Positions 250 through 58,474 of a stretch of 64,000 bases of DNA are shown here, in pieces; position 1 is the first letter of the stretch, and each line of letters opens with the position of its first letter. A program made the position numbers and the translations under genes. The DNA comes from Cytophagaceae bacterium (lineage in GTDB: Bacteria; Bacteroidota; Bacteroidia; Flavobacteriales; Flavobacteriaceae): positions 248,001-312,000 of the forward strand of contig PALD01000080.1 of NCBI GenBank assembly GCA_002710685.1. Direction: 5' to 3'. The notes below the pieces were generated by a model. The model made no database searches and was not told the origin of the DNA. It saw only the letters and a list, made by a program, of their open reading frames with translations.

Positions 250-1641
250 ATGAGCGACACATTGATTATACTTATTACGGCATTGCTCTGCCTGGGCATT
301 GGCGCATTTATAGGCAACCTCATTGCAGGACTAAAAACCAAGTCGGCGACAAGTTCACTAGAAGAAAGGCTTAACAGCCAGAAACAAAATCTAGAGCGTA
401 CAGAGCTCGCTTTCCGCGAAAGCGAAGAAACCAGAAACAATCTGAATAGCGAGATTTCGGCCTTGCAGAACAAGCTCACCGCCCGCAATGTAGAATATGA
501 AAACCTGGCTACGCGACTGCAGGAAAATAAAGACGAACTGGAAAAATTACAGGAGAAATTCACCAAGGATTTTGAAATCGTGGCAAACAAGATTCTCGAT
601 GAAAAATCCAGTAAATTCACCTTGCAGAACAAGGAGAACCTGGATATTATACTTAAACCACTTCAAGAAAAAATAAAGACATTTGAGGAAAAAGTGGAGC
701 TGACCAACAAAGAGAGTATTGACCGTCACAGCGCCATGCGCGAGCAACTTAAAAACCTTGCCGAACTCAACCAGCAAATGAGCAAGGACGCCGATAACCT
801 GACCAAAGCGCTGAAAGGTGATTCTAAAATGCAAGGAAATTGGGGCGAGCTTATCTTGACAAGAGTCCTAGAAAAATCTGGACTTGAAAAAGACCGCGAA
901 TACACCATTCAGGATAGTCACAACACCGAGGATAACAAGCGCCTGCAGACTGATGTGCTCATCCATCTGCCAGACGGCAAAAAAATGATCGTGGATAGCA
1001 AAGTATCGCTGACGGCCTTTGAACGTTTTGTGAGCGAAGAGGACGAAATGCAAAAAAAACAATACCTGCAGCAGCACATCAACTCCATCAAATTGCACGT
1101 AAAACAACTGAGCGAAAAGAACTATCACCACCTCATTGATGAAAGTCCGGATACGGTCTTTATGTTCATCCCCATCGAGCCGGCATTTGCGATTGCTTCT
1201 GCAAACGAGCCCAATTTATATGAAGATGCGTTCAGCAAACAGGTAATCATTGTGACGCCCTCTACCCTGCTGGCAGCATTGAGGTTGGTAGATAACCTTT
1301 GGCAAAACGACCGTCAAAAGAAAAATGCCATTGAAATCGCAACTCAGGCAGGAAATCTATACGATTCTTTCACCCTACTGACTGACGAACTCTTAAAATT
1401 AGGCCGCCAACTTGGGACTGTTTCTAACACCTATGAGAGCACGATGAAGAAACTTACCGGAAGAGGAAACATGATCAACCGGGTAGAAAAATTGCGTAAA
1501 CTGGGTGCCAAGGCAAGTAAACAAATCGACACTAAATTATTGAGCCGGGCCCGTGAGGAAGACATTGATGATGACGATGATGAAGATACACCAGCCCTTG
1601 AAGCCCCTAAAACCGATAACGGCAACCTATTCAATAACTAG
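250..1641 (+). CDS. rmuC: DNA recombination protein RmuC
   Basis: 463 aa. It starts with one N-terminal membrane helix (residues about 5-27), followed by a long coiled coil (about 35-200) and then the RmuC domain (about 190-420). That domain includes the stretch around GNWGELILTRVLEKSGL and the predicted nuclease-like core with DVLIHLPDGKKMIVDSKVSL. The family is thought to restrict DNA inversions and rearrangements at short inverted repeats, as a membrane-anchored nuclease-fold protein. The tail is acidic (a run of D/E near residue 440). The gene ends 3 bp before a small membrane protein gene and probably shares its transcript. It contains one copy of the palindrome family at 408-424. Confidence 0.93.
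   Translation: MSDTLIILITALLCLGIGAFIGNLIAGLKTKSATSSLEERLNSQKQNLERTELAFRESEETRNNLNSEISALQNKLTARNVEYENLATRLQENKDELEKLQEKFTKDFEIVANKILDEKSSKFTLQNKENLDIILKPLQEKIKTFEEKVELTNKESIDRHSAMREQLKNLAELNQQMSKDADNLTKALKGDSKMQGNWGELILTRVLEKSGLEKDREYTIQDSHNTEDNKRLQTDVLIHLPDGKKMIVDSKVSLTAFERFVSEEDEMQKKQYLQQHINSIKLHVKQLSEKNYHHLIDESPDTVFMFIPIEPAFAIASANEPNLYEDAFSKQVIIVTPSTLLAALRLVDNLWQNDRQKKNAIEIATQAGNLYDSFTLLTDELLKLGRQLGTVSNTYESTMKKLTGRGNMINRVEKLRKLGAKASKQIDTKLLSRAREEDIDDDDDEDTPALEAPKTDNGNLFNN
408..424. repeat. Palindrome family copy in rmuC
   Basis: CGCTTTCCGCGAAAGCG, a near-perfect inverted repeat with one extra central base, read in frame as AFRESE within the coiled-coil region. Confidence 0.7.
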
Positions 1642-1644
1642 ACC

Positions 1645-2010
1645 ATGAAAAGAGTTCTTTTAATTATCCTGGGGGTTATACTCGCACTGTTCATCGCCTT
1701 TTATACCATCGCCTATTTTGCAACATATAGCGAGGGGACCAGAGCTGGAGAACTCATAAAATTCTCCCATAAAGGCGTGATTGTAAAAACCTGGGAAGGC
1801 CAGATAAGCCAGGGGATTAGCGGTGCACAGATTTTTGATTTTTCGGTGATGGGTGGTGAAGATGAAGTTATTGAGAAAATGCAGGAGTATCAGGGAGAAT
1901 ATGTCAAGCTCACTTACGTGGAAAGGTTTACAACCTTCTTCTTTTGGGGCGACACAAAGTATTTTATCACTGATGTTGAATTAGCTCAATCGCCGCATTT
2001 TAGGAGGTAG
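1645..2010 (+). CDS. Small membrane-anchored protein of unknown function
   Basis: 121 aa. It has one N-terminal hydrophobic segment (residues about 4-26), then a soluble part likely outside the cytoplasmic membrane. Features include a G-rich stretch (SQGISGAQIFDFSV), an acidic helix and the C-terminal motif VELAQSPHFRR. It starts 3 bp after rmuC, so it is co-transcribed. I recognise the rmuC partnership as common in flavobacteria but know no function. A diverged fragment of the same C-terminus occurs at 15172-15219 with mostly synonymous differences, which shows that the tail is under protein-level constraint. Confidence 0.8.
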   Translation: MKRVLLIILGVILALFIAFYTIAYFATYSEGTRAGELIKFSHKGVIVKTWEGQISQGISGAQIFDFSVMGGEDEVIEKMQEYQGEYVKLTYVERFTTFFFWGDTKYFITDVELAQSPHFRR

Positions 2011-2098
2011 TTTTAGTCATTCATACCTCGTACCTCGTAGCTCGTAGCTCGTAGCTCGTAGCTCAAAAATCAAATAAATTACTTAAGTCTTCTCCGGT
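1963..2098. repeat. Left direct repeat flanking the amino-sugar locus
   Basis: Matches 15172-15279. The first 24 bp are coding and diverged. 1987-2031 matches 15196-15240 with one mismatch. 2060-2098 matches 15241-15279 exactly. The left copy carries 28 extra bases (2032-2059), equal to four heptamer units. It spans the 3' end of the small membrane protein gene, the intergenic spacer and the last 12 codons of nagA. Confidence 0.9.
2025..2064. repeat. Heptamer tandem repeat (agctcgt / acctcgt)
   Basis: Five full 7-bp units (acctcgt twice, agctcgt three times) plus a partial sixth unit, located between two convergent genes and ending at the nagA stop codon. The homologous right-hand repeat has one full unit (acctcgt at 15234-15240) plus the partial one, so four units were gained or lost, consistent with slipped-strand change. 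Confidence 0.8.
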
Positions 2099-3214
2099 CT
2101 TTATCGTCTGAAGAATCTTCATTTTATCTTTTTCACTCTTAAAAAGGATAAAATCTGCTGGCTCTCCTATTTGAAAATCCTTAATCGATTTGTTATTTAT
2201 GAATGATAAGGGTTTGAAGGATGCCATATCGATAGCCTCTGAAAAAGTTGTTATTCCGGTATTTACCAAATGATCAATACACCAAGTCAAGGATTGAGCC
2301 GAGCCTGCAAGCATTTGAGGGTTATCTTTTATAAAAAGTCGGCCAGAATCACTAAGTTCAACTTCGCCCCCAATATGCGTTGTGTATTTCCCAGCGGTCA
2401 AGCCCGCGAATTTTGTACAATCACTTACTAAAATACACTTTCCGTGCTTTTGCTTCAGAAATACTTTGAGTACATTTTCTGGTAGATGAAATCCATCTGC
2501 AATCAAGGAAGCCCATAAACCTTCAGCGGCAAGCTGGTCCCAAATGTAATTATGATGTCTGGGAAGTTCTAGATGTGTGGCATTTCCCAGATGTGTGGAA
2601 ATTTTGGCGCCAGCCTTAACTGCCTCATCAATTTGCAATGAAGTCGCAGCGGTATGCCCAATGGCCACCAATACACCCCAAGTAGTACATTTTTGAATAA
2701 ATTGTGCAGCATTTTCCCATTCTGGGGAGAGTGTAATCATCTTTATCCTTCCATCCGCTACATCCTGCCATTTACTAAAGAGATTCCAGTCTGGTGCCTT
2801 TATGTGTTCTAGTGGATGAGCACCTCGTGGTCCATTTTTTTTTGATAGAAAAGGGCCTTCAAGATGAATTCCCTGGATGGTTTTATTGACCAATTCATTT
2901 TGTTGACAAGCTTCATTTATCACTTTAAGCGTGGCCTGGATATGCTCATCACTATTGGTAATCAACGTGGGAAAATAGGTTGTTATCCCTACTTTCCAAA
3001 GCTGTTCAGTGACTTCAAAAACATCTTCAACGGTAAGACCATCTTCATTAAAATCAATTCCCTTAAAACCATTGACCTGCAAATCCACCAGCCCGGGAGC
3101 AATACTGTTTTCGGGAGTTCCGGTATGTTTTTCAACAGCAGTTATATAACCATTTTTAACGGTAATCTTAACCGGTTCCCGGGTTTTGTAATGAAGTCCC
3201 TCTAGCTGAATCAC
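2063..3214 (-). CDS. nagA: N-acetylglucosamine-6-phosphate deacetylase
   Basis: 383 aa, amidohydrolase superfamily. It converts GlcNAc-6-phosphate to glucosamine-6-phosphate plus acetate in the cytoplasm, feeding NagB. Visible motifs are the early PGLVDLQVNGFKGIDF segment, HLEGPFL (metal ligand Glu), AIGHTAAT and STHLGNATH (His ligands), and LVSDC with the catalytic Asp. The start is GTG at 3214. It is the last gene of a minus-strand run, 5 bp after the symporter gene. Its last 12 codons lie inside the left flanking repeat and are identical in DNA to the tail of the unrelated gene at 15264, so the C-terminus may have been reshaped by recombination. Confidence 0.93.
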   Translation of the reverse strand: MIQLEGLHYKTREPVKITVKNGYITAVEKHTGTPENSIAPGLVDLQVNGFKGIDFNEDGLTVEDVFEVTEQLWKVGITTYFPTLITNSDEHIQATLKVINEACQQNELVNKTIQGIHLEGPFLSKKNGPRGAHPLEHIKAPDWNLFSKWQDVADGRIKMITLSPEWENAAQFIQKCTTWGVLVAIGHTAATSLQIDEAVKAGAKISTHLGNATHLELPRHHNYIWDQLAAEGLWASLIADGFHLPENVLKVFLKQKHGKCILVSDCTKFAGLTAGKYTTHIGGEVELSDSGRLFIKDNPQMLAGSAQSLTWCIDHLVNTGITTFSEAIDMASFKPLSFINNKSIKDFQIGEPADFILFKSEKDKMKILQTIKTGEDLSNLFDF

Positions 3215-3219
3215 ACGCT

Positions 3220-4698
3220 TTAGTTTGATGAATTCTTTTCTAAATTAAGATGTAAATCCTTAACCACTGGCGAAACTTCTCTTTTATTTAAAAGACCAAG
3301 CCCTATATACAAAATAAGTGCTATAATCGTGGGGCCGCCCACCTGTACTGCCAGAGAATCAAAAGGAAATAACTTTAAAACTATAAATCCCATTAATCCA
3401 CCTATAATGGATATTACGGCGATTTTTCCGTCGCTTTTCGCAAAAGCAGGTAAAAGACCCAGAATCATGGGGATTGAGATGGGACCGAGTAATGCGGCGA
3501 ACCAAGAAATAATCAGCCCAAAAACACCACCAAAATACCCCGCATTCAACGCCGTGACAATGGTAAGTGACGTAAAACAAAGCGTAGTGATCCGGGCAAG
3601 TTTGAGGTTCTGTGAATTTGAAAAGCTTCTGATTTTTGGGAATAAATTGGGCAAAATATCCCTGCTTATCACCGCTGAAACCGTGTTAGAGTCTGATGCG
3701 GTCATGGATAACGTATTTGCAAATAGCGAGGCCAGGACAAGTCCCACAAGCCCTTTTGGCAGAAAATCTATTACCATTTTACCGTATGATAGCGTGGGGT
3801 CTGCCAGGTTTTCAAAAAATAAAGGCGAGGCAAACATGGGATATAAGAGGATGAGTGGCCAGATAAAATACAATAACGATGAAAGTACTGCCGCCTTGCG
3901 CGCCGTTGTGCCCGATGATGATGAAATAAAACGTGTTGCGAGGTTCCAGGTGCCGCCACTATAACTGAAAAAGTTAATGACTAACATCACCAGGGCAAAA
4001 AACACGGTATATGGACTATTGAAAAAAGCTGAATTGCCTTCGGGCAATTTATCCCACATGGAGATTAAGCCTTCAAGGCCATCATCTAATTTTATGATTA
4101 TCATGACCATCATGGTAATCCCGGCCAGTAACTGAACGATAAACTGGGCAAAATCATTCCAAACATCTGCCCAAAGACCGCCAATGGTTATATAGACCAA
4201 GGATACACTGCCCACGAGCAAAATTCCCACGGTTATTGAAGTGCCGCTAAAAACATTGAGCAATACGGCAATGGCTGCAAGTTTCCCACCCGTATCAAAT
4301 ACCTTGATAATCGCGCCGGTCCATGCAATTAACTGTTGTGTGGTAAGATTGTAACGTGTCAATAGATATTCAGTGGGAGATTGAATACCAGAATAGATAC
4401 GAAGCCTTGACCACCTTGGGGCAATATAGAATGCTGCAATCATGGTGGCAATGGCCACGGTAAAGGCCCACCAGACATATAGTGTAAAACCATGGGTGTA
4501 GGCAATTCCGGCGTAAGCCACAAAAACGGCCCCACTGTATCCAGAAACATGGTGTGAAATCCCAGAGAGCCACCAGGGCAACTTCCCTCCTGCCGTGTAG
4601 AAGTCGGCAGAATCCTTTACCCTAAAATAAGCCCATAACCCTATGGACAACAGCATTATAAAATAGATAAATAATACAACCCAATCGAGTACCTGCAT
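3220..4698 (-). CDS. Sodium/solute symporter (SSS family), probable amino-sugar importer
   Basis: 492 aa with about 13 hydrophobic helices. The N-terminal helix followed by DSADFYTAGGKLPWWLSGISHHVSGYSG matches the SSS family fold (SglT/PutP type). Such proteins use the sodium gradient to bring in sugars, sialic acid or amino acids across the inner membrane. Position between nagA and the GH20 gene argues for import of GlcNAc or another product of hexosaminidase cleavage. The substrate is inference from context. Confidence 0.88.
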   Translation of the reverse strand: MQVLDWVVLFIYFIMLLSIGLWAYFRVKDSADFYTAGGKLPWWLSGISHHVSGYSGAVFVAYAGIAYTHGFTLYVWWAFTVAIATMIAAFYIAPRWSRLRIYSGIQSPTEYLLTRYNLTTQQLIAWTGAIIKVFDTGGKLAAIAVLLNVFSGTSITVGILLVGSVSLVYITIGGLWADVWNDFAQFIVQLLAGITMMVMIIIKLDDGLEGLISMWDKLPEGNSAFFNSPYTVFFALVMLVINFFSYSGGTWNLATRFISSSSGTTARKAAVLSSLLYFIWPLILLYPMFASPLFFENLADPTLSYGKMVIDFLPKGLVGLVLASLFANTLSMTASDSNTVSAVISRDILPNLFPKIRSFSNSQNLKLARITTLCFTSLTIVTALNAGYFGGVFGLIISWFAALLGPISIPMILGLLPAFAKSDGKIAVISIIGGLMGFIVLKLFPFDSLAVQVGGPTIIALILYIGLGLLNKREVSPVVKDLHLNLEKNSSN

Positions 4699-4733
4699 AA
4701 AAATGATTTTCTATTAACAAAAAACTTCTATCC

Positions 4734-6278
4734 TCATTTTAATTTGGCCAAACGGTCACGCAAAACTTTCATGGGCTGTATTCTTATTTCATTTTGTTCT
4801 TTTATCTCGGCATCATACAAAAAACCCTTATTGAGCGAGGTGAATTTCTTGCTCAATTTATGGGCATCTTTAATAACCGTTTCCAGCGCATTAAGTACCT
4901 GTGGGGTTTGTGCCATGACAAACCCTGGTGAATTATATTGAGCTTCAATTTCCTTAAAGCTTAGGTAATTCATCCTTAAATCAGCCATAAGCCTGTAATG
5001 GTCAAACTCCGTTTTATGCTCTTTAGGGTCAATCTGGTTTATCTGTTCCTGTATTTTTGCATATTTCTCTTTAAGAAGCTTTATGCTCTTGGTCTTGACG
5101 GGTTTTCCATCTTCAATCAATTCTGGAGACCAGAACAAGAAATCTTTAAACCTTTCAATCTCGGCATTGTTGAGGCCAAACCTTTTTTTGGCGTAAGCCG
5201 AAACAAACTTCTCTGGATCTATCGGCTCCTTGCTCTTGAGGGCTTCGGCATAACTGGCAATCAAGATCCTGAAACCAGAAAGTGGATAGTTATTTCTTAT
5301 CTGCACCATATCAACAACGTCATAGCCCACATCCCAGGTAAAACCGTATAGGCCACTGGTAGACCATGAGGTCATGACCATACCCTTATAACCTGCCTCT
5401 CGGGAATAGGGTATGAAATCGCGCTGGTTGTTAAAGTGGGTTTTCCAGTTTGTGATGTACCAATTGTCAGGATGGCTACGAATGGATGGTGCGCCCCAAA
5501 AGGTAAAACCGAGTTCTTGTAATTTTGGGATATCCCCAAAATGGTTCACTTTCCAACCGTAGTTCCAGTCTACAAAAATGGTTTCCTTGGGAAGCTCCCG
5601 TGCTGCCTCGGGATGCTTTAAAATGATATCGGCCCACATGACGGGTTTTTTACCCAGGTCGATTACCAACTGGGCAATCATTTTCATGTGGTCAACAAAA
5701 AGTTTTGACTTGCCCTCTTCTTCTACCTTTTTCTGGCATTTTTCACAATGCCCCAGTAACCGTGTTTCGTCACCTCCTATGTGGATATAATCTGAATTGT
5801 GCATGGCAGCCATATCTGCAAAGAGATCTTTGAAAAGTTCACGGTTTGCCTCTACTTCCATGGGGCATAGTTGAGATATGTCTTTATCGTCTTCTTTTAA
5901 GATGCTATAGCGTGGGTTTCTTAAGATATATTCTAGATGGCCCAAGCTTTGCTGCAACGGTATCACCTGAATCCCCAGCCCGTCGCAATAAGACACAAAA
6001 TCCTTGATTTCTTCACGGGTATATGAATACTTATTGCCAATGGTCGCATGGTCTTTAAAAGGATATGTGCCCTCATACTCCATCACGATGGTGTTCATGC
6101 CAAAACCTGCAAGTTCTTTAGCAAAATCCTTGAGCGCCCCAGGGGTCATTACCTGAATACGCAGGTCAAGGTGAAATCCTTTAACCTCAAAATCATCTGT
6201 ATTCATATCTTGACCCCAGATGGATAAAGGGACCATTATGATCAACAGCATTATTTTGAGAAGATATCCAGATTTCAT
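4734..6278 (-). CDS. Beta-N-acetylhexosaminidase, glycoside hydrolase family 20
   Basis: 514 aa with a signal peptide (residues 1-22, ending near WGQD), so exported, probably periplasmic. The TIM-barrel catalytic domain begins almost at once (KGFHLDLRI), with no N-terminal GH20b domain. The family catalytic pair is seen in YIHIGGDETRL (Asp-Glu, about residue 170). It would release terminal GlcNAc or GalNAc from the non-reducing ends of oligosaccharides. It lies 35 bp from the symporter gene and 3 bp from nagB in the same operon. The compact architecture resembles the minimal GH20 enzymes more than large chitobiases. Confidence 0.86.
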   Translation of the reverse strand: MKSGYLLKIMLLIIMVPLSIWGQDMNTDDFEVKGFHLDLRIQVMTPGALKDFAKELAGFGMNTIVMEYEGTYPFKDHATIGNKYSYTREEIKDFVSYCDGLGIQVIPLQQSLGHLEYILRNPRYSILKEDDKDISQLCPMEVEANRELFKDLFADMAAMHNSDYIHIGGDETRLLGHCEKCQKKVEEEGKSKLFVDHMKMIAQLVIDLGKKPVMWADIILKHPEAARELPKETIFVDWNYGWKVNHFGDIPKLQELGFTFWGAPSIRSHPDNWYITNWKTHFNNQRDFIPYSREAGYKGMVMTSWSTSGLYGFTWDVGYDVVDMVQIRNNYPLSGFRILIASYAEALKSKEPIDPEKFVSAYAKKRFGLNNAEIERFKDFLFWSPELIEDGKPVKTKSIKLLKEKYAKIQEQINQIDPKEHKTEFDHYRLMADLRMNYLSFKEIEAQYNSPGFVMAQTPQVLNALETVIKDAHKLSKKFTSLNKGFLYDAEIKEQNEIRIQPMKVLRDRLAKLK

Positions 6279-6281
6279 GTC

Positions 6282-7061
6282 TTATTTGTTAAGATTAATA
6301 TACTGCATTGATTCTTTGGTAACCTTATATGCCGCTTTGTCAAAATAAAACATGCAATGCGGGTGTTTCCTGAGAATCGATGCCGGGCAAGAAGTAGAAA
6401 TGGGCCCCCGCAAGGTGTTCTTGACGGCTAGCCCCTTTTTATCACCCACCACGACACAATAAAGAAATCTACCATTTAAAAGTGTGGGGATGGTCAAGGT
6501 AAGCGCTGTCGTGGGCACTTCTTCAATAGCTTCAAAACAAGCATCATGCACTTGTTGTAAACGGCAATCATCATCAAGTACGACCTTTTTTAATATTTGG
6601 CTGTCGCCAAAATCAGCCACGGGCGGGTCATTAAAAGCAATGTGGCCATTTTCTCCTATTCCCAGGCATACAATGTCAATTTTGTGCATCGTGATAAGTT
6701 GAGAAAAACCATCTATCTCATCAGCGACATCATTCCATGGGTTGATCAAGTGCTTTTCCTTTACCCCTACCTTAGAAAAAAGGTTTTCCTCAAGATAGTT
6801 GGCAAAAAGTTGGGGAGCTTTTTTGGGCAGACCCAGATATTCATCCATGTTGAAGGCTATTATCTTTTTCCAGTCTATTTTGTTAGATCGTGATAAGTAA
6901 TCTAGCATTGTATCCTGGGAAGGTGCCGCTGCAAATATTATCCTTACGTTTTGTTGCCGTTCCTGTAATTCAACAATCTTATCTTCTATAGCTTTTCCTG
7001 CGGCCACTCCAGTCTTTGCAGGAGATTCAAAAACCTTAACGCTATTCTTTAAATCAAGCAT
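6282..7061 (-). CDS. nagB: Glucosamine-6-phosphate deaminase
   Basis: 259 aa. It converts glucosamine-6-phosphate to fructose-6-phosphate and ammonia, the step after NagA. Motifs are FAAAPSQDTMLDYL, AFNMDEYLGL (catalytic Asp region) and GIGENGHIAFNDPP (active-site His and neighbours). The length is normal for the short NagB form. It lies 3 bp upstream of the GH20 gene. No GlcNAc kinase is present in the operon, so the GlcNAc-6-P for this pathway must be made by a kinase encoded elsewhere. Confidence 0.93.
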   Translation of the reverse strand: MLDLKNSVKVFESPAKTGVAAGKAIEDKIVELQERQQNVRIIFAAAPSQDTMLDYLSRSNKIDWKKIIAFNMDEYLGLPKKAPQLFANYLEENLFSKVGVKEKHLINPWNDVADEIDGFSQLITMHKIDIVCLGIGENGHIAFNDPPVADFGDSQILKKVVLDDDCRLQQVHDACFEAIEEVPTTALTLTIPTLLNGRFLYCVVVGDKKGLAVKNTLRGPISTSCPASILRKHPHCMFYFDKAAYKVTKESMQYINLNK

Positions 7062-7159
7062 TTATTTTTTCAATTTATTAAAAAATTAATCCTCACCGGA
7101 AATAATCGTGCCTCCGGCAGAATTTTTTGAAAACTGACCATATCAAATTTTTCGTTTCT

Positions 7160-7939
7160 TTATTGGATTTCAAAATGATCAATGATCATTTCCTGCTCCA
7201 TATCATTGCTGGGCCTTGCCCCCTTAAACAACCACAGGTTGATCTTGATCCTTTCATCTCCCGCTGGGGGAATATTATCTCCCGTATAACTCCATTCACT
7301 GATTACATCATCTGCCCCTGGGGTCAATGTATGGCCTAGATAACTTCCAAATTCAATTACATCAGCCTGCCAATCAAAATAATGTGTGGAGAGTTTTCCA
7401 TTTAGATTCAGGCCATAACGTGATTTATTTCCTGCTAGATAGGATGGTTGAATGGCAAATTGTGAATTTTCATTTTCATCTTGGGACCACTTGGAAAATT
7501 CAATATCGATTTCCTCTTCGTCGTTAGTGTATGAAAAAAGCCCCCCCACAACATTTTTATCAAGTGCATCAACATTGCTCGCCACATAGAAAACATATTT
7601 TTTGAATCCGTATGAATTGCGCAAGGTTATACCTGCACATGACCATAGGCCGGCATTTTCAGTAATCTTAAGATGCAGGCGACCTTGATTATCAACCCAT
7701 ACATTTTCTTCTGAATCTGAAAAGTAATTAGGGCCAGGCCCCGCTGTTTTATCATCAGTATCCCTCACGATCCATTCATATCCTGAGAATTCTATGATCC
7801 TTGTACTGTTGACGGGCGTGGGTATTTCTTCTTGTTCCTGGGAAGAACTACAGGCTGCCAGAAACATCACTACCAGTACACAGTTTACATATCTATATCC
7901 CGTGTGGGACTTTTTAGAATTTTTAAGTCTATACATCAT
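7160..7939 (-). CDS. GH16-like lipoprotein (concanavalin-A-like glucanase fold)
   Basis: 259 aa with a lipoprotein signal: hydrophobic stretch then FLAACSSS, Cys at about residue 30. The domain from about 45 to 259 has the beta-sandwich pattern of family 16, including the E-x-D-x-E catalytic motif in EEIDIEFSKW, with nucleophile and acid/base glutamates intact. Such enzymes cleave beta-1,3/1,4 glycans (laminarin, agar, carrageenan or host-type galactans); the substrate here is unknown. Only 4 bp separate it from the upstream lipoprotein gene. A second start codon lies one codon downstream. Probably outer-membrane anchored and surface exposed, acting before the GH20 enzyme. Confidence 0.75.
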   Translation of the reverse strand: MMYRLKNSKKSHTGYRYVNCVLVVMFLAACSSSQEQEEIPTPVNSTRIIEFSGYEWIVRDTDDKTAGPGPNYFSDSEENVWVDNQGRLHLKITENAGLWSCAGITLRNSYGFKKYVFYVASNVDALDKNVVGGLFSYTNDEEEIDIEFSKWSQDENENSQFAIQPSYLAGNKSRYGLNLNGKLSTHYFDWQADVIEFGSYLGHTLTPGADDVISEWSYTGDNIPPAGDERIKINLWLFKGARPSNDMEQEMIIDHFEIQ

Positions 7940-7943
7940 CTAG

Positions 7944-9380
7944 TTATTGAACGGTGACAAGGATATTGAATGGCTCAATACTTGATCCTGCCCTATCTCT
8001 TGCCGAAAGCGTAATCACATCTTCACTCCCTGAACCATCATTGATATACAGAAGGTTCATTACCTCAACATCATGTTGCGTAAACTTATCACCCACCTGC
8101 ATGATACTGGCTCCTTTTACAAGCCAACCATGAACAGGGATTTCCTCAACCGTATAGATAACATCTTCTGGATTTGCTCCCGTGACCTCTAAAATGTTAT
8201 TGTCAAGAGCCGTTGCCCCACCTGCCCCTACTGTAAAACCAGTATTGGTGTTGAGTTCTATTGAACTATCTCCTGATGCTAAAGTAGCAATCAACATAGG
8301 CGGACTCAAAGTAGTACTTTCTTTTGAACCAAATTCATCAGTCTCATCACCACCGGCCTCACCATCAATCACCAGTGCGATACGACCTTTGTTATCAATA
8401 CTGTTATAAAAATCAGTAACATCAAATTGAAAAATATCTATTTTCTCAGTTGTAATACTGGCTATGGGCGCATCATCAGGTAAAGTGGCGTTATTAAAGT
8501 TGAGTCCCATTTCAGTCCATAACGTATCTTTTACTGAATATACATCAAGGCTCAAACCCTTAGCGTGAGTAAAACTTACGGCCAACTCCAGCTTTACATC
8601 AGTTATGACACCTTCCTTTTCAAAATCTTTTAAATCAAACATCATGTAGGTTTTCCTGTCATATTCACCGTCGCCAGTAACATTCTTTACCTTTAATTTT
8701 TGGTCAGAGCCAAAATTAGAACCAGATTGACTGCCCCCGTTGATAAACGTATCAAATAATGGGGTAATGGTATCCCTTACAACAGATGCATCAGGAGGGT
8801 TTAAATCTCCAGATGGTGCAGAAAAATACACGATGGATGGTGAAATATGTATCACACCATTTGTCGGCTCCAGGTTAGATGTTGTAATGGTCCATTGACT
8901 GCTTGTGCCTTCATTAATTATCCCTTGAAAATTACTGTTATGAGACAGGTACATTATCTGTCCATTTTCAGTTGCATACGGTAATGGATTATTACCTTGT
9001 ATAAGGTCAGGATCTGTAAATAGTACCGTGGCCTTGACAATATGGTATTTTAATGCATTGCGTAAAATGGGTACAGGTATTTCAGCCAGGGATTCATAAT
9101 TGTTATCCTCAAGATATTCTTCAAAGGCACTATTTGCTGGAGCTATAAAGGTATGAGTATCTGCTGCCTGATAAACATCTTCAAGACCCGAGATTTTAAT
9201 TGCCTCTTCCAGTAGTGACAGGGATTCTTTTGTCTGGATATATTCCCATGCGGTAACACCCAGCTTACCCGTGGAGCCTGATGGCTGATATTCATAATCC
9301 TCCTGTATCTCACAACTGTATATCGCGCAAAGTATTATTGCCAAGACCGATACGCTAAAAAGTATTTTGTTTGTTTTCAT
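7944..9380 (-). CDS. Multidomain surface lipoprotein: FAS1, DNRLRE and CSPG-like domains
   Basis: 478 aa. Lipoprotein signal (ILCAIYSCEIQ, Cys at about 23). Residues about 40-190 form a fasciclin (FAS1) domain with HTFIAPANSAF, LKYHIVKA and NGVIHISPSIV. Residues about 200-365 match a DNRLRE-type carbohydrate-associated domain (DTFINGGSQSGSNFGSDQKL). Residues about 370-478 resemble a CSPG/cadherin-3 repeat (GWLVKGASIMQVGDKFTQHDVE). It sits where other polysaccharide loci place a surface glycan-binding protein, directly after susD. Role proposed: glycan capture or adhesion at the cell surface. No catalytic residues are recognised. Confidence 0.75.
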   Translation of the reverse strand: MKTNKILFSVSVLAIILCAIYSCEIQEDYEYQPSGSTGKLGVTAWEYIQTKESLSLLEEAIKISGLEDVYQAADTHTFIAPANSAFEEYLEDNNYESLAEIPVPILRNALKYHIVKATVLFTDPDLIQGNNPLPYATENGQIMYLSHNSNFQGIINEGTSSQWTITTSNLEPTNGVIHISPSIVYFSAPSGDLNPPDASVVRDTITPLFDTFINGGSQSGSNFGSDQKLKVKNVTGDGEYDRKTYMMFDLKDFEKEGVITDVKLELAVSFTHAKGLSLDVYSVKDTLWTEMGLNFNNATLPDDAPIASITTEKIDIFQFDVTDFYNSIDNKGRIALVIDGEAGGDETDEFGSKESTTLSPPMLIATLASGDSSIELNTNTGFTVGAGGATALDNNILEVTGANPEDVIYTVEEIPVHGWLVKGASIMQVGDKFTQHDVEVMNLLYINDGSGSEDVITLSARDRAGSSIEPFNILVTVQ

Positions 9381-9421
9381 CTCAATTTATTTTAATGATT
9401 TGAGCACCGATTGACCTTAGT

Positions 9422-10789
9422 CTATTGATAATATGAATTTTGTTCCAGGTTAGGGTTACGGTTTAAAGCATCCTCATGTAGAGGCCAGAGTATATTACCC
9501 TCATCACTTATACCGTTTATGGGGTTCATGACTTCAATGGCTTTACCGGTCCTTACAAGGTCAAACCACCTGTGTCCCTCATAACTAAGTTCAATAGAGC
9601 GTTCATGTAAGATGGCCGATGCCACATCTCCATACATCTCCGTGGCAGTTGACTCATCAAGATTGGGCAAGCCGGCCCTGCTTCTTATTAAGTTCAATAA
9701 TGTGAGTGCTTCTGCAGTTTCCCCCAGGGCTTCATGGGCCTCAGCCTTTAAAAGGATTATATCTGCAAGGCGCAGTAGGACGATATTGTTAGCCGAAGGA
9801 TCTGGACTTTCATCATTGAATCCTTGCCCAAAGAACTTCCATATTTTCCTGGGTGCTTCTACCGTGGTATCATAAATCAAATCTTTCCTGGCATCACCTT
9901 CTTCAAACGAATCCCTAAACTTCTCACTGGGAAAATAATGACTGTCTGAACCCAGGGCATATAGAACCCGTAATGAATTGGTCTGTGTCTCGTTGTACCC
10001 TACTTCAAAAATACTTTCATTAGAATATCCAGATGTAAAGATCTTTGACCAGTCGCCAATGGAAACCAGGGAGTAGAGATTATTCTGCATTACCGCTTCC
10101 GCGGAAGCGATTGCACTATCATACTCATGCCTCCACATGTAGACCTTTGTTAAAAGTGCCTGAGCCCCGCCCTGGGTAAATAAAATCCTGTCCCGCTCAC
10201 CCCCATAACTTTCCCGGCAATTTTCGGCAGCAAAAACAAGGTCAGCAACAATTTGATCCAGTACGGTTTCCTTATCCGTCCTTTCTAAAAACAAATCCTG
10301 GTCAATGCTCTCATAGGGTTCAAGGATAAATGGGACATCTCCCCAAAGCCTCACTGCATAGAAATAGGACAAGGCCCTCAGTGCCCTGGCCTGGCCTTCT
10401 AGCTGCAGCCCAAATTCACTACCCCCCTCAAATACATCTGGGATATATTTTATGGCATAATTAGCCCTGCTTATGGTTTCGTAAATATTGTTCCAGCTGG
10501 CTGAAGAGGTGGTCCTGTTCAATGTGTTTTGAAGCAGTGCCTGTGGATCACCAGAGTGCCTGGTATCCACGGCATCTGCCCTACCCTCACCCCAGAAGGA
10601 AAAGTTTGTACGAAAAGTGGATTGGGCCGCCGCATATATGCCATATACACCGGCCTGTGCATCAGCTGAAGTTTTATAGTACCCCTGGGCAGGAAAACTG
10701 CTTACCGGGTCCTTGTCAAGTATATCATCTGAACATGATAAAATACTTAGTGCGACAATTACATGGAATATTCTTTTCATCTTCTTCAT
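9422..10789 (-). CDS. RagB/SusD-family nutrient-binding lipoprotein
   Basis: 455 aa. Lipoprotein signal (ALSILSCSDDILD, Cys at about 19), then the SusD TPR-rich fold with EGQARALRALSYFYAVRLWGDVPF in the N-terminal half and the C-terminal motif ELSYEGHRWFDLVRTGKA. SusD proteins cap the SusC channel at the outer surface and bind the glycan. The gene follows susC by 11 bp. Two start codons lie at positions 1 and 4 of the ORF. A perfect 16-bp palindrome lies inside at 10094-10109. Confidence 0.93.
   Translation of the reverse strand: MKKMKRIFHVIVALSILSCSDDILDKDPVSSFPAQGYYKTSADAQAGVYGIYAAAQSTFRTNFSFWGEGRADAVDTRHSGDPQALLQNTLNRTTSSASWNNIYETISRANYAIKYIPDVFEGGSEFGLQLEGQARALRALSYFYAVRLWGDVPFILEPYESIDQDLFLERTDKETVLDQIVADLVFAAENCRESYGGERDRILFTQGGAQALLTKVYMWRHEYDSAIASAEAVMQNNLYSLVSIGDWSKIFTSGYSNESIFEVGYNETQTNSLRVLYALGSDSHYFPSEKFRDSFEEGDARKDLIYDTTVEAPRKIWKFFGQGFNDESPDPSANNIVLLRLADIILLKAEAHEALGETAEALTLLNLIRSRAGLPNLDESTATEMYGDVASAILHERSIELSYEGHRWFDLVRTGKAIEVMNPINGISDEGNILWPLHEDALNRNPNLEQNSYYQ
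10094..10109. repeat. Palindrome family copy in susD
   Basis: CGCTTCCGCGGAAGCG, a perfect 16-bp palindrome, read in the gene as ASAEA. Confidence 0.7.
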
Positions 10790-10800
10790 TTTGAATGTTT

Positions 10801-13800
10801 TTAGAAACCTAGGTTCAAGCCTAAAATAAATGTCCTGCTTTGTGGATATGAGCCTTCATCCACTCCGGTCCTTAAGCCGTTATATGAGTTAACATCTGGG
10901 TCATACCCGGTATAATGCGTCCACGTTATCAGGTTTGACCCCGTGATATAAGCATCAAGTCTTGAGAGACCAAATTGATCTATCAATTTACCGGGGAAAC
11001 TGTACCTTAGATTGATGTTCTTCAACTTGATGTAAGACCCATCTTGAACCCATCTACTTTGCACCCTACTGTCAGTTTCCAGGGGATCATCCTGTATGGG
11101 CCTGGGAAAATCTGTAATATCCCCTTGCTCACGCCATCTATTGAGTGCATCTCTTGACAGGTTGTTATACCGCACAACTGAATTTCGCTGATGATTGATT
11201 TCGCTATAGATATCATTGCCGTAAGAGAACTGGAAGAAAACACTTAGGCTGAAGTTTTTGTATGAAAAATCATTGGTTATTCCTCCATAAAAATCAGGTG
11301 TTGCATCACCTATCACCTGCTTGTCATCAGCATCTATAATATTATCACCATTGACATCGTCCCATATGGGATCACCTCCTTGAAATTGTGGCCCCGTGGC
11401 ACCGTAAGTCACGCCGTTGACGTTGTCTTCATCCCTGGCATAAACTCCATTGAATTTCCAGCCATAAAATGTACCTATAGGAAGCCCCTCTTTAAGAATA
11501 TGATATTGACCATTTTGAATATAACCATTGGTCAACAATTCATCTGGTAAATCCTTGACCATATTTTTGTTAGAGCTGATGTTAAGATTAGTATTCCATT
11601 TAAAATCACCTACAAGATTGCGTGTGCTTATTGAAACCTCTACACCTTTATTTTCAATTTCACCTATATTCTGAGTGATGTAAGAAAACCCGGTAGTCCT
11701 GGGTATAGGTACATTGTAAAGTAAATCGTTTGTTTTTTTGAGATAAACATCTCCATTTAAAACCACCCTGTTTTTCCAGAGACTAAGGTCTAGGCCGGCA
11801 TTATATTGTGTGGTGGTTTCCCAGCTTAAACCAGAATTAGGCATGACCACGGGAGCTGCACCAGAGTAATCCAAGTAGTTTGCACCCACCATGAATTCTC
11901 CCTGAGACGTATAGTTCCCTATTGCTTCATTACCGGTCTGACCTACGCTTAAACGTATTTTTGCATCATTTACAACTGTTATACCTTCAAAAAATGATTC
12001 ATCAGAGAAACGCCAACCCAATGATGCAGAGGGGAAATAACCAAACCGCTTGTCTTTTCCAAAACGGGATGATCCATCTGCCCTGAGATTTACCTCTGCC
12101 AGGTATTTGTTCTTATAATCATAAGAAATCCTTCCAAAATATGAAAGCAGGGCATGTTCAGTCGTGATATTTACTTCCTGGTTAGAAATTGTTCCAGCCC
12201 CGTTCAACGTAGTAAGATTGTCGCTGGGAAAGAACATTCCGTCAAGGCCGGTTTGTTCATATTTCCATTTTTGAAAACTCATGCCCAGCACTGCCGAAAG
12301 ATTGTGGTCTCCAGCTATGTTTTTATCAAAGCTCAAGTAAGTCTCATTTCCCCAGGTAAGGTTATTAAGAGCCCTTACCGCCCCTGAATTATAGCCCTCA
12401 CGATAATCCAGGGTAGACGGAAGAAACTCATCCTCTTTCATGGAAATATAATCCACGTTAAGGTTGCTCCTTAATTTAAGCGCATCGATGATTTGATATT
12501 CTGCATACTGGCTTCCTATAATGCGGTTGGTTTTATTGAGATGCGTTGCCAGTTCCGCAAGGCCTACGGGGTTTCTTTTACCAAACTGGTAACCGTTCAA
12601 TGAACCATCTGGCAGGTACATGGCATATGTGGGTGGGCGTATGAGCAACTCCCTCACAACACTCAAATTGCCACTTCCACCTGCATTTATCCTATTATTG
12701 ACCCCATTGGTGTACGATATGCTTTGTCCAAAAGTAAGTTTGTCAGAAGCTTTAAAATCCACATTTAAACGAGAGGTGACCCTTTTATAATTTGAATTGA
12801 GTATAACACCATCCTGGTCTAAAAAAGAAGAACTCCAGGCATATTTTATGTTTTTGGAACCACCCCGTACAGAGAGTTCAGCTTTGTATTGAGAAGCCAC
12901 CCTGAAAACCTCATCCTGCCAATCCACATCTCCATTGTTTTTTGCACTAAGTGAATCTATCACAGCAAAAGTAGGTTCAGTGGGATTGACCATATTTCTA
13001 TATGAATCAAGAATAAGGTCGCGGTACTCGCTAGCATTCAACACGTCCAGGTGACGTGTAACCTCACTGTACCCGGCAAAAACATTGACGTTTATCTGTG
13101 CATCTCCATCCATACCCCTTTTAGTAGTGATCATCACCACACCGTTTGCTGCCCTGGAACCATATATGGCCGTTGAGGCAGCATCCTTCAATATTTCAAT
13201 GGACTCAATATCTCCTGGGTTTATATCAGCCAGTGGATTCAATCCAAAATTCTCTGTCCCGTTAAGGGAAGACATTGTACTGGTTTCAATGGGAATACCA
13301 TCTACCACATATAATGGGGAGTTACCTGAATTTAAGGAAGAGCTTCCCCTCACGCGTATGGTCATCCCTCCTCCCGGCGCCCCAGAATTTGATGTTACCT
13401 GAACTCCTGCCGCCCTTCCCTGTAACAAGGATACTGCATCCTGTTGATTTGCTTTTGAAATTTCTTCGCTTCCTACAGAAGTCACAGAACCGGTAAGGTT
13501 CCTTTTCTTTTTCTTGCCATACCCCACAATTACGAGTTCATCTAGTTGATTGGTCACCGGGGCTAATGCCACATCAATCTTATCATCATCCCCAATCGTG
13601 ATTTCCATAGTTTCAAAACCAAGAAAAGAAAAAACCAAAACATCACCTTGTGATATCCCAGATATTGAATAAGAACCATCCATATCTGAGGAAGTCCCCG
13701 TGGATGAGTCTTTTACAATAACATTGACCCCGGGAATGGATTGTCCTGTCGTCGCATCTGTAATAACACCTTGAACAACTGTATCTTGAGAATAAGCGGT

Positions 13801-13890
13801 AAAAACACTTAAAATCAGCAGGCTACATAATAAGATACCTTGACGTAGTCTCAATGATTTATCAAAACTGTTACAAATAATTTGACGCAT
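10801..13890 (-). CDS. SusC/RagA-family TonB-dependent outer-membrane transporter
   Basis: 1029 aa. Signal peptide (1-35, ending AYSQD), carboxypeptidase-like regulatory domain (about 38-120: GVITDATTGQSIPGVNVIVK), a plug domain with the family signature region and a long beta-barrel ending in aromatic LGF. It imports oligosaccharides across the outer membrane with TonB energy and pairs with the SusD gene 11 bp downstream. It is the first gene of the operon, and its promoter (13938-13969) is overlapped by a LacI-type operator. Together with NagA, NagB and GH20 the likely cargo is a GlcNAc-containing oligosaccharide. Confidence 0.95.
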   Translation of the reverse strand: MRQIICNSFDKSLRLRQGILLCSLLILSVFTAYSQDTVVQGVITDATTGQSIPGVNVIVKDSSTGTSSDMDGSYSISGISQGDVLVFSFLGFETMEITIGDDDKIDVALAPVTNQLDELVIVGYGKKKKRNLTGSVTSVGSEEISKANQQDAVSLLQGRAAGVQVTSNSGAPGGGMTIRVRGSSSLNSGNSPLYVVDGIPIETSTMSSLNGTENFGLNPLADINPGDIESIEILKDAASTAIYGSRAANGVVMITTKRGMDGDAQINVNVFAGYSEVTRHLDVLNASEYRDLILDSYRNMVNPTEPTFAVIDSLSAKNNGDVDWQDEVFRVASQYKAELSVRGGSKNIKYAWSSSFLDQDGVILNSNYKRVTSRLNVDFKASDKLTFGQSISYTNGVNNRINAGGSGNLSVVRELLIRPPTYAMYLPDGSLNGYQFGKRNPVGLAELATHLNKTNRIIGSQYAEYQIIDALKLRSNLNVDYISMKEDEFLPSTLDYREGYNSGAVRALNNLTWGNETYLSFDKNIAGDHNLSAVLGMSFQKWKYEQTGLDGMFFPSDNLTTLNGAGTISNQEVNITTEHALLSYFGRISYDYKNKYLAEVNLRADGSSRFGKDKRFGYFPSASLGWRFSDESFFEGITVVNDAKIRLSVGQTGNEAIGNYTSQGEFMVGANYLDYSGAAPVVMPNSGLSWETTTQYNAGLDLSLWKNRVVLNGDVYLKKTNDLLYNVPIPRTTGFSYITQNIGEIENKGVEVSISTRNLVGDFKWNTNLNISSNKNMVKDLPDELLTNGYIQNGQYHILKEGLPIGTFYGWKFNGVYARDEDNVNGVTYGATGPQFQGGDPIWDDVNGDNIIDADDKQVIGDATPDFYGGITNDFSYKNFSLSVFFQFSYGNDIYSEINHQRNSVVRYNNLSRDALNRWREQGDITDFPRPIQDDPLETDSRVQSRWVQDGSYIKLKNINLRYSFPGKLIDQFGLSRLDAYITGSNLITWTHYTGYDPDVNSYNGLRTGVDEGSYPQSRTFILGLNLGF

Positions 13891-13937
13891 AATCCAGTAT
13901 TTTAATTATTTGATAGATTTTTATCAATCTTAGGACT

Positions 13938-13969
13938 CAAATGTAAAATTAACTTTCTTATAATGCAAA
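13938..13969 (-). promoter_or_regulatory. susC promoter (Bacteroidota -33/-7 type)
   Basis: On the minus strand TTTG (13969-13966) is followed, after a 20-bp spacer, by TACATTTG (13945-13938), matching the Bacteroidota consensus TTTG-N(19-21)-TAnnTTTG. It implies a transcript start near 13930 and a leader of about 40 nt before the susC ATG. The -33 element lies within the operator palindrome, so bound regulator should block polymerase. Confidence 0.7.
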
Positions 13970-13980
13970 CGTTTGCATTA
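13961..13980. promoter_or_regulatory. LacI-family operator upstream of susC
   Basis: TAATGCAAACGTTTGCATTA is a perfect 20-bp palindrome with the central CG and half-site TGCAAAC typical of LacI/GalR operators. It covers the susC -33 element. Confidence 0.85.
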
Positions 13981-14116
13981 AAAATGTGAAATTAAAAGTA
14001 TTCATTTCCAATATTTGATGATATAATAATTATTTTTGTTTATATAAATAATGCGTTAACATCCATTATATATACTATATGGTCTTTTTTTTTAGATAAA
14101 TCAATCACCTTATAAT

Positions 14117-14136
14117 TGATGCAAACGTTTGTTGTA
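14117..14136. promoter_or_regulatory. Second, weaker LacI-family operator at the regulator start
   Basis: The core GCAAACGTTTG repeats the susC operator core, but the outer bases are asymmetric. It ends 7 bp before the regulator ATG, suggesting autoregulation or looping with the site 156 bp away. Confidence 0.6.
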
Positions 14137-14143
14137 TTATTTT

Positions 14144-15166
14144 ATGAAAAAAAATAGAATCACGCTTAAAGACCTGGCGAAGGAGCTTAATTTATCTCCT
14201 TCCACCATCTCAAGGGCTCTAGATAATCATCCTGCCATAAGCGCTGCCACAAAAAAAAAGGTTCAAGATAAAGCTGAAGAGTTAGGTTTTATGCCAAATT
14301 CAATTGCCTCCAGCTTCCGAAAGAAAAAGACCAGTTCCATAGGGGTGATTGTTCCGCGCATAGATATTCATTTTCATTCCCTTGTAATCAGTGGTATTGA
14401 GGACTTTTCATATCAAAGGGGATATAATGTCACCATATTTCAATCCAAGGATTTATCCAAAAGAGAAAAAGAAATAACAAAAATCCTTCAAAACAAGATG
14501 GTTGAAGGTATCATAGTTTGCCTTGCCACCGAAACCAAGACCTATGACCACTTCAAGAAGTTCAAGAAGTTTGGTGTCCCCATCGTATTTTATGATAGGG
14601 TTCCGGCAGATTTAAATTTCAATAAGATTGTAATCAATGATTTTGAATCGTCATTTATGGCCACAGAACACCTCATAAACAAAGGGTGCAACAGGATTGC
14701 CCATATTGCCGGTAACCAATCTACAGATATTTTCAAGGCACGCCTTGAAGGCTACAAAGCCGCATTGACAAAGCATAAAATGGATATTGATAAAGATATT
14801 ATTTCGTTTACCGAAAATCTAACCTATGAAGAAGGTGCGCTTTGCGCAAGTAAATACTTGTCACTTGACAGCATCCCGGATGGTATATTTTGTGCAAACG
14901 ATTACACAGCTGTAAGTGCTATCCAGGTTTTTAGAAAAGCAGGTATAGATATCCCTAAACAAACTGCAATCGTGGGTTTCAGCAACTATCCTATTTCACG
15001 GGTTATTGAGCCACATCTTACCACTGTGAATGATCAGGCATTTCAAATGGGGGCAGCAGCAGCAAAACTTTTGATACGTCTTATTGAAGATGAAGATGAA
15101 ATAATTAATTCTGAAACCATCTCCTTAAAAACTGAATTGATTGTGCGTGAGTCATCGATGCGGTAA
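14144..15166 (+). CDS. LacI-family transcriptional regulator of the amino-sugar locus
   Basis: 340 aa from the ATG at 14144. A TTG 15 bases upstream would lie inside the operator and add five residues not typical of the family. Residues 1-60 hold the LacI DNA-binding head: TLKDLAKELNLSPSTISRALDN (helix-turn-helix) and the hinge region NSIASSFRKKKTSSIGVIVP. The rest is a periplasmic-binding-protein-like effector domain (about 62-335). It is divergent from susC, with operators at 13961-13980 and 14117-14136. The effector is probably a sugar or sugar phosphate from the NagA/NagB pathway, which is inference. The operator position argues for repression. Confidence 0.93.
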   Translation: MKKNRITLKDLAKELNLSPSTISRALDNHPAISAATKKKVQDKAEELGFMPNSIASSFRKKKTSSIGVIVPRIDIHFHSLVISGIEDFSYQRGYNVTIFQSKDLSKREKEITKILQNKMVEGIIVCLATETKTYDHFKKFKKFGVPIVFYDRVPADLNFNKIVINDFESSFMATEHLINKGCNRIAHIAGNQSTDIFKARLEGYKAALTKHKMDIDKDIISFTENLTYEEGALCASKYLSLDSIPDGIFCANDYTAVSAIQVFRKAGIDIPKQTAIVGFSNYPISRVIEPHLTTVNDQAFQMGAAAAKLLIRLIEDEDEIINSETISLKTELIVRESSMR

Positions 15167-15171
15167 TAGAT

Positions 15172-15219
15172 TTCATCACCCATGTTGAGCTTGCACAATC
15201 GCCGCATTTTAGGAGGTAG
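15172..15219 (+). pseudogene. Fragment: last 15 codons of a homologue of the gene at 1645-2010
   Basis: Reads FITHVELAQSPHFRR and a TAG stop, against FITDVELAQSPHFRR at 1963-2010. Five codons differ synonymously (TTT/TTC, ACT/ACC, GAA/GAG, TTA/CTT, GCT/GCA) and one is nonsynonymous (GAT/CAT). From the CAA codon on the DNA is identical. It begins five bases after the regulator's stop. This is a remnant of a second, diverged copy of that gene, left at the right junction of the amino-sugar locus. Confidence 0.85.
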
Positions 15220-15279
15220 TTTTAGTCAGTCATACCTCGTAGCTCAAAAATCAAATAAATTACTTAAGTCTTCTCCGGT
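15172..15279. repeat. Right direct repeat flanking the amino-sugar locus
   Basis: Counterpart of 1963-2098. It contains the gene fragment, the spacer with a contracted heptamer array and 39 bp identical to the nagA 3' end, which here supply the last codons of the LOG-family gene on the minus strand. Confidence 0.9.
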
Positions 15280-15845
15280 TTTAACCACTTAGGCGCGGGC
15301 AATGGTTTAAAGTTCCTCATTTTTTCGAGCAAACGGTTGACATCATCATCAACCAATAGCATTTTATAATTTTCCATAGAGAGGAAACCGCGTTTTACCA
15401 TCTGCTCCAGCAGGGTAATAAGAGGGTCATAAAATCCGTTGATATTCAACAAACCTATAGGCTTTGAATGCAGGCCCAGCTGGCCCCAGGTGATGATCTC
15501 AAAAAGTTCTTCCATGGTGCCAAAACCTCCCGGAAGCGTAATAAACCCATCACTCATCTGCTGCATTTTAAGCTTGCGCTCATGCATGTTTTCAACCGTG
15601 ATAAGTTCAGGCAGGCCCAGGTGCACCACTTCTTTTGTCTTCAAAAAACCGGGGATAATACCTATAACATTCCCTTTTTGGGCGAGGGCGGCATTGGCAA
15701 GTTTTCCCATTACTCCGCGCTTCGCGCCACCATATATCAAGGTAATGTTTTCGCTGGCAAGCGTTTTCCCTAATTCTTCGGCTTTAGTGATAATTTGGGG
15801 GTCGTTACCCTCACTGCTTCCGCAAAAAACACAAATAGACTTCAT
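15264..15845 (-). CDS. LOG-family (TIGR00730) nucleoside-5'-monophosphate phosphoribohydrolase
   Basis: 193 aa from the ATG at 15845 (MKSICVFCGSSEG), which matches the family start; a longer reading adds 19 unlikely residues. Rossmann-fold protein with IYGGAKRGVMG and the signature LPGGFGTMEELFE. Family members hydrolyse AMP-type nucleotides, or cytokinin nucleotides in plants, to a free base and ribose-5-phosphate. The last five codons (KPEKT) lie in the repeat shared with nagA, so the natural C-terminus may have been altered by the recombination that brought in the neighbouring locus. Confidence 0.9.
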   Translation of the reverse strand: MKSICVFCGSSEGNDPQIITKAEELGKTLASENITLIYGGAKRGVMGKLANAALAQKGNVIGIIPGFLKTKEVVHLGLPELITVENMHERKLKMQQMSDGFITLPGGFGTMEELFEIITWGQLGLHSKPIGLLNINGFYDPLITLLEQMVKRGFLSMENYKMLLVDDDVNRLLEKMRNFKPLPAPKWLKPEKT

Positions 15846-47650: not shown

Positions 47651-47667
47651 TTTGGCTTTAAGCCAAA
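47651..47667. repeat. Palindromic 17-mer, copy 2 (reverse orientation)
   Basis: TTTGGCTTTAAGCCAAA, the exact reverse complement of copies 1 and 3. It lies 4 bp after the DUF6095 stop and 14 bp before a terminator. Confidence 0.85.
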
Positions 47668-47680
47668 AAAAGAGCATAAA

Positions 47681-47708
47681 AAAACCCTTGAAGTTATTCA
47701 AGGGTTTT
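47681..47708. terminator. Bidirectional terminator between the murQ operon and rpmE
   Basis: Perfect 12-bp stem AAAACCCTTGAA / TTCAAGGGTTTT with a GTTA loop. Confidence 0.93.
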
Positions 47709-58410: not shown

Positions 58411-58444
58411 AAAAAGGGCCCGAATTGATTCAGGCCCTTTTTTT
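58411..58444. terminator. Intrinsic terminator after the endonuclease gene
   Basis: Stem AAAAAGGGCC (58411-58420) with GGCCCTTTTT (58433-58442), 12-nt loop, T tract. It serves the + strand gene and, given the A tract on the other side, perhaps also the convergent M14 gene. Confidence 0.9.
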
Positions 58445-58457
58445 GTGAGTTTGTTTT

Positions 58458-58474
58458 TTTGGCTTAAAGCCAAA
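58458..58474. repeat. Palindromic 17-mer TTTGGCTTAAAGCCAAA, copy 3
   Basis: Lies 14 bp after the terminator and 3 bp before the stop of the convergent M14 gene. Confidence 0.85.

Follow-up and report, generated by a model that had tools for sequence, protein, structure and literature searches.

The stretch of DNA analysed here (the window) comprises 64,000 nt from a Cytophagaceae bacterium (GCA_002710685.1, contig PALD01000080.1, positions 248,001-312,000 of the forward strand). Its source, called the own genome below, amounts to 4,988,172 bases in 80 contigs, with an estimated contamination of 8.79%. A 13-kb cassette of nine genes for the utilisation of N-acetylglucosamine (GlcNAc), from nagA to a lacI-type regulator, lies between a small gene partnered with rmuC on the left and a gene of the LOG family on the right, and a direct repeat brackets it (Table 1). 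With adjacent susC and susD genes, a glycoside hydrolase and a regulator, the cassette qualifies as a SusC/SusD utilisation locus. Pfam detects no recombinase among its nine proteins, shorter open reading frames (ORFs) inside or between the genes lying outside the scan. This agrees with an earlier reading made from the letters alone (the sequence-only reading), which had described the block as devoid of a visible integrase or transposase.

The direct repeat around the cassette

The repeat search returned two pairs, 1961-2036 with 15170-15245 (88%) and 2049-2101 with 15230-15282 (94%). These are the sole direct repeats of at least 25 nt in positions 1-24000 of the window (exact seed 14) and the sole ones of at least 30 nt across the full 64 kb (seed 16). 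Both pieces align as one repeat of 136 nt on the left and 108 nt on the right. Its sole gap of 28 nt equals four units of the 7-bp tract in the spacer, and the longest exact run common to both copies is 44 nt. A search of the own genome with positions 1900-2150 (E ≤0.001) matched only the query itself and the right copy, and a word of 18 bases taken from the 7-bp tract matched, at two mismatches or fewer, only within the left tract. A dispersed element is thus rejected, and the copies at many other loci that the sequence-only reading had named as one half of its refutation were not found in the own genome.

The repeat corresponds to the duplicated former junction of two core genes: a small-gene end and a LOG-gene end, with a spacer between them. 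In the right copy the LOG stop codon lies at 15264 and the last LOG codons belong to the intact gene. The left copy consists of the intact small-gene end, the spacer and the same LOG-tail bases, and here spacer and tail encode, in another frame, the C-terminus of nagA. A segment of 39 nt is therefore coding on both sides: the left copy uses it for the final nagA codons and the right copy, in part, for the final LOG codons, in different frames. Repeat search and alignment reproduced the coordinates of the repeat and the difference counts given in the sequence-only reading. What that reading overlooked is the nature of the repeat, a duplicated pair of gene ends with nagA fused to one of them.

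Table 1 Features of the locus, with window coordinates.
Feature	Position	Strand	Basis
rmuC, core gene left of the insertion	250-1641	+	Pfam RmuC, E 7.3e-102
Small 121-aa gene, core partner of rmuC, intact	1645-2010	+	no Pfam family
Left junction copy: small-gene tail, spacer with 7-bp tract, LOG tail as nagA end	1963-2098	+	repeat search, alignment
7-bp tandem repeat (CTCGTAG), four units more than right copy	2027-2064	+	alignment
nagA, N-acetylglucosamine-6-phosphate deacetylase-like, last 8 residues replaced	2063-3214	-	Pfam Amidohydro_1
Joint 1: nagA/LOG-tail fusion point, inferred microhomology ≤10 bp, ACCGGAGAAG on minus strand	2089-2098	-	tail comparison
Sodium:solute symporter (SSS)	3220-4698	-	Pfam SSF; 72-84% identical in five relatives
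GH20 family protein	4734-6278	-	Pfam Glyco_hydro_20
nagB-like glucosamine-6-phosphate isomerase	6282-7061	-	Pfam Glucosamine_iso
Probable lipoprotein, LAAC lipobox by eye, 0 Pfam families	7160-7939	-	same place in four relatives
Fasciclin / CBM96 / cadherin-like surface protein	7944-9380	-	Pfam scan
susD	9422-10789	-	Pfam SusD_RagB
susC, TonB-dependent receptor	10801-13890	-	Pfam Plug, CarbopepD_reg_2
lacI-type regulator	14144-15166	+	Pfam LacI, Peripla_BP_3
Joint 2: lacI end to small-gene tail	15167-15171		sequence, alignment
Right junction copy: last 15 codons of diverged small gene, spacer, LOG tail	15172-15279	+	repeat search, alignment
LOG-family gene, intact, core gene right of the insertion	15264-15845	-	Pfam Lysine_decarbox

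The two joints of the cassette

To locate the fusion of nagA, its C-terminus was compared with those of 30 aligned relatives. All 30 end in G-x-x-[VI]-[YF] followed by a few residues; the window protein departs from every one of them after IKTGE and closes with GEDLSNLFDF. An end of this kind is also absent from all six weaker homologues (L072-L076, L078) that were excluded from the alignment. On the other side, LOG alignments reach at least residue 188 of 193 in 53 of 53 relatives, mostly the last residue, and several of these proteins end in LKPE-x-T. Since the nagA relatives end otherwise and the LOG relatives align through, the bases of the 39-nt segment belong to LOG, and it is the end of nagA that was replaced. 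At the joint itself the window carries ACCGGAGAAG in both genes. Some relatives have similar bases here in nagA and LOG, the nagA of relative G001 reading TCGGGAGAAG and the LOG gene of relative G003 ACCGGAGAAT. Up to about 10 bp were likely common to both partners at joint 1. The cassette was thus severed within nagA and its broken end attached to a duplicate of the LOG tail, perhaps by way of a microhomology of about 10 bp.

At joint 2 the end of lacI meets the tail of a second, diverged small gene. The 48-nt coding tail shows seven differences from the intact gene, which fall in six codons and all lie within its first 24 nt. Five of these codons are synonymous and one is nonsynonymous (Asp/His), exactly as the sequence-only reading had counted them, with identity from the later codons on. 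Beyond the coding tail there is one difference in the next 21 nt and none in the 39 nt that follow. Seven of the eight differences between the copies are hence concentrated in the first 24 of 108 compared nt (clustering P 8.5e-5). When seven random substitutions were simulated, one nonsynonymous codon or fewer resulted in 0.12% of 100,000 trials (P 0.0012). Because a dead fragment is not expected to mutate in this pattern, the two tails probably stem from two working alleles, with a crossover near position 1987.

The core neighbours and the cassette in relatives

The small gene was searched in 149 genomes and matched in 60 of them, the own genome included; the loci of the 29 best relatives were inspected, as were GTDB loci from the best 80 of 134 relatives (15 of these 80 loci shorter than 16 kb). 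In 78 of the 80 GTDB loci rmuC precedes the small gene at a distance of no more than 2.6 kb, and in 49 of no more than 0.7 kb. For the LOG gene, searched in 99 and 397 genomes, the loci of 53 relatives were examined with flanks of 1.5 kb; 49 of the 53 hold prmC in the same short locus (25/29 in the first subset). Both pairs, rmuC with the small gene and prmC with LOG, are core. For rmuC and the small gene (22 genomes) and for LOG (21 genomes), trees were read for their topology without support values. In the first two the window adjoins members of its own genus; in the third its place near the midpoint root is unresolved. On this placement rmuC and the small gene look native.

LOG was not found near the small gene in any of the 80 GTDB loci or of the loci of the 29 best relatives, and the small gene did not occur within the 1.5-kb flanks of LOG in any of the 53 loci. 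This absence of an empty site is weak evidence, because the best match of the small gene outside the own genome reaches only 78% and the nearest records were possibly left out. In Leeuwenhoekiella aequorea (L127) the small gene is followed by a gene, which we take to encode a hotdog thioesterase, whose only match elsewhere in the own genome (C36) amounts to 36%. A neighbour of this type seems to have been lost from the place after position 2010. Given that the usual neighbour has no better match in the own genome, the adjacency of the small gene and LOG looks lineage-specific. In two Mesonia and one Salegentibacter (L149, L155 and L167) the small gene ends in VELSQSPHFRR, compared to VELAQSPHFRR in the window; just after its stop codon these three loci carry a short GTAGGTT-like tandem tract, and LOG is not in the locus.

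The order lacI, susC, susD, surface protein, lipoprotein, nagB, GH20, SSS and nagA is kept in relatives G013, G009 and G001. G043 has the same order with two extra ORFs, its lacI being cut by the end of the stretch, and G026 holds a partial, rearranged set. The lipoprotein carries an EIDIEF motif, putatively GH16-like. A second GH20-like gene, named from its sequence, follows nagA in G013, G009, G001 and G043; it is absent in the window, where the operon stops at the nagA tail. Relatives of the second GH20 protein of G009 reach only 41% and 37% in the own genome. The 41% protein lies beside a nagB-type gene (61% to that of G009) in a second amino-sugar locus of the own genome (G000:C26, 34735-38255), which does not look like a clean remnant of the window cassette.

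The distribution of the cassette is patchy: a nagA homologue occurs in 14 of the 149 genomes (own included), in two of 12 congeners and, at E ≤1e-60, in 29 of 397 genomes of the wider family (own included). Among plasmids, 219 records match nagA, all below 60% identity, and gave no lead, near records possibly lying outside the search. The 20-kb stretches of G013, G009 and G001, which extend some 2-5 kb past the cassette, contain no long direct repeat flanking it, the lacI side of G043 lying outside this comparison; G009 shows one short internal repeat unrelated to that of the window. ORFs on the nagA side are common to G001 and G009 as far as about 120.4 kb in the G009 contig, and those compared farther out are not shared; the lacI side of G001 was compared over only about 2.6 kb. 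The nagA-side comparison suggests that the operon occupies different places even within the genus.

Regarding base composition, the G+C content (GC) of the block is 40.8% compared to 44.7% in the rest of the window, and among 52 overlapping stretches of 13 kb the one that begins at 2000 has the lowest value. GC at third codon positions ranges from 0.32 to 0.47 in the block genes and from 0.40 to 0.55 in nine flanking genes. These values fit accessory DNA and are no proof of a foreign origin. Elsewhere in the window, positions 47651-47684 and 58441-58474 form an inverted 34-nt pair, 82% complementary, around GGCTTTAAGCC beside A/T runs, and may represent two terminator-type hairpins.

Proposed course of the insertion, alternatives and known systems

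We consider it fairly probable that the block arose by illegitimate, recombinase-free insertion of a piece of the operon at the small-gene/LOG junction, followed by an exchange of alleles with a related strain. In the course of events that we infer, an ancestral junction of small gene, spacer and LOG gene would have taken up a fragment of the conserved GlcNAc operon with one break within nagA and the other directly behind lacI. Its nagA side would have become attached to the 3' end of LOG over a few bases present in both, approximately ACCGGAGAAG, and its lacI side to the small gene where 15 codons remained before the stop. As a result some 108 bp of junction sequence would be present twice, with both core genes still whole. 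By homologous recombination, crossing over around position 1987, a related strain would then have contributed a second allele, so that the two copies differ; the same exchange may also have brought the finished insertion into the lineage. The length of the 7-bp tract would have changed later. The sequence-only reading had the block enter by recombination from a related genome. Of this proposal the insertion stands, as do junction copies that seem to derive from different alleles, in keeping with the clustered and mostly synonymous differences and with the patchy distribution of the cassette; an origin of rmuC and the small gene in another lineage is not supported. The trees place both genes beside the own genus, except perhaps for the case of a very close donor.

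Several observations weigh against this course. At joint 1 the original end of nagA has been replaced and the joint bases vary among relatives, e.g., TCCGGCGCAA in the nagA of G013 and ACCGGAACGG in the LOG gene of G012, which is why the microhomology counts as inferred; joint 2 shows no clear microhomology. The clustering of differences is weaker within the 48 coding nt taken by themselves (P 0.0047), and both the clustering and the synonymous pattern depend on few bases. The empty small-gene/LOG junction was not found in any relative, very near genomes possibly being outside the search, so that the two repeat copies are the sole witnesses to the adjacency before insertion. Accessory genes are commonly low in GC. 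The tree of SSS joins the window to its congeners G001 and G009 (support 0.97), and that of nagA joins it to G013 and G165 (support 0.85). These two trees differ and so do not distinguish between an operon acquired from outside and a resident one that was relocated.

The competitor to which we grant the best, still small, chance had been the second idea of the sequence-only reading. Recombination between the repeats in a relative would have freed a circle of cassette plus one junction copy, which entered the junction here through one crossover. If the resident and the circular junction recombined near 1987, the observed allele pattern would result, and the microcin H47 island, as described in PMC3191183, provides a precedent (12.6 kb, imperfect repeats of 148/144 bp, no integrase, excision and integration). 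However, no circle, empty site or second carrier was seen, a linear exchange with a relative gives the same pattern in fewer steps, and the circle still requires a first insertion elsewhere. Somewhat less probable is a merodiploid origin, in which the uptake of a larger segment of a related strain, with its small gene, LOG gene and operon, gave a tandem duplication that two deletions then trimmed, one between LOG and nagA and one between lacI and the small gene. Ordinary deletions would account for the diverged small-gene tail and for both joints, and a microhomology at joint 1 is plausible for them. Yet two independent deletions are needed, both sparing the cassette, and no remnant of a larger segment lies beside the joints in the sequence read.

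Mutation after a simple duplication appears quite improbable. The right tail would be free to mutate and chance clustering or conversion between the copies could keep the rest alike, for which the weaker clustering in the coding part (P 0.0047) leaves some room. The clustering over all 108 nt (P 8.5e-5) and the synonymous pattern (P 0.0012) nevertheless misfit a dead fragment. Slightly less credible still is a chimeric assembly of two strains. The 80 contigs and the estimated contamination of 8.79% speak for it; against it, the longest exact common run of 44 nt is below ordinary read length and an assembler is unlikely to invent joints 1 and 2. Least tenable of all is an integrase island or transposon that used the small-gene 3' end as attachment site and lost its enzyme: such islands usually insert at a gene 3' end and leave a gene tail on the far side, but the Pfam scan finds no recombinase in the cassette proteins, the repeat also holds the LOG end and has replaced the nagA end, which is unexpected for an integrase attachment site, there is no inverted repeat of at least 25 nt in window positions 1-24000, and the regions 1950-2249 and 15000-15299 share no inverted word of 9-20 nt. 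An integrase-type genomic island was rejected for want of an integrase gene among the cassette proteins (Pfam), and a transposon or insertion sequence composite because Pfam shows no transposase, the 300-nt ends share no inverted words of 9-20 nt and the duplication, at 108 bp, is not short.

Taking the recombinase-free insertion as the preferred explanation, the block represents a real, readable insertion scar between ordinary housekeeping regions of a marine flavobacterium. Movement of utilisation operons among marine flavobacteria without a mobility gene is seldom visible in sequence. Here both joints can be read, one of them at the ends of two reading frames with a likely microhomology, and the 108-bp target duplication would permit clean loss: recombination between the junction copies would restore the junction of small gene, spacer and LOG, with both genes whole. 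We give little credence to the further claim that, in Bacteroidota, the cassette behaves as a catabolic unit capable of translocation, moving out of and into chromosomes via its long junction repeats with host functions only. If it were true, excision would restore both neighbours and operons could spread without a mobility gene. No circular form or empty site was seen, and the mobile module of the sequence-only reading is at most a candidate.

Judged by titles and the start of abstracts, nothing relevant was found as a published account of this locus. The nearest described case found is the microcin H47 island of E. coli, whose anatomy the block resembles. According to PMC3191183, this island of 12,635 bp is bounded by imperfect direct repeats of 148/144 bp that are 76% identical and has no recombinase of its own; excision and integration were detected and unoccupied sites reported. 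A later study (PMC5426353) adds that none of the tested E. coli recombination functions was involved in excision. Like this island, the window has direct repeats of about 100-150 bp at the ends (108/136 bp) and no recombinase in the cassette proteins. Unlike it, the cargo is an amino-sugar operon instead of a microcin, the repeat consists of two gene ends that were duplicated together, one cargo gene being fused to it, and any mobility is read from sequence anatomy, whereas that of H47 was established by experiment.

Homology-facilitated illegitimate recombination, as outlined in PMC3240628, combines one homologous exchange with one non-homologous joint as foreign DNA enters the chromosome. 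In the window, by contrast, both cassette ends look illegitimate and the homologous exchange would fall within the duplicated junction. With regard to the cargo, passages of PMC6298971 on SusC/SusD loci of Flavobacteriia report findings that corroborate horizontal exchange of these loci between Flavobacteriia and name N-acetylglucosamine and chitin among possible substrates. The window pair, with its glycoside hydrolase, transporter and regulator, is similar to these loci. Those passages do not treat insertion joints, whereas the joints of the window are readable, and they offer a pattern to seek elsewhere, namely a cassette gene whose last codons are borrowed from its neighbour.

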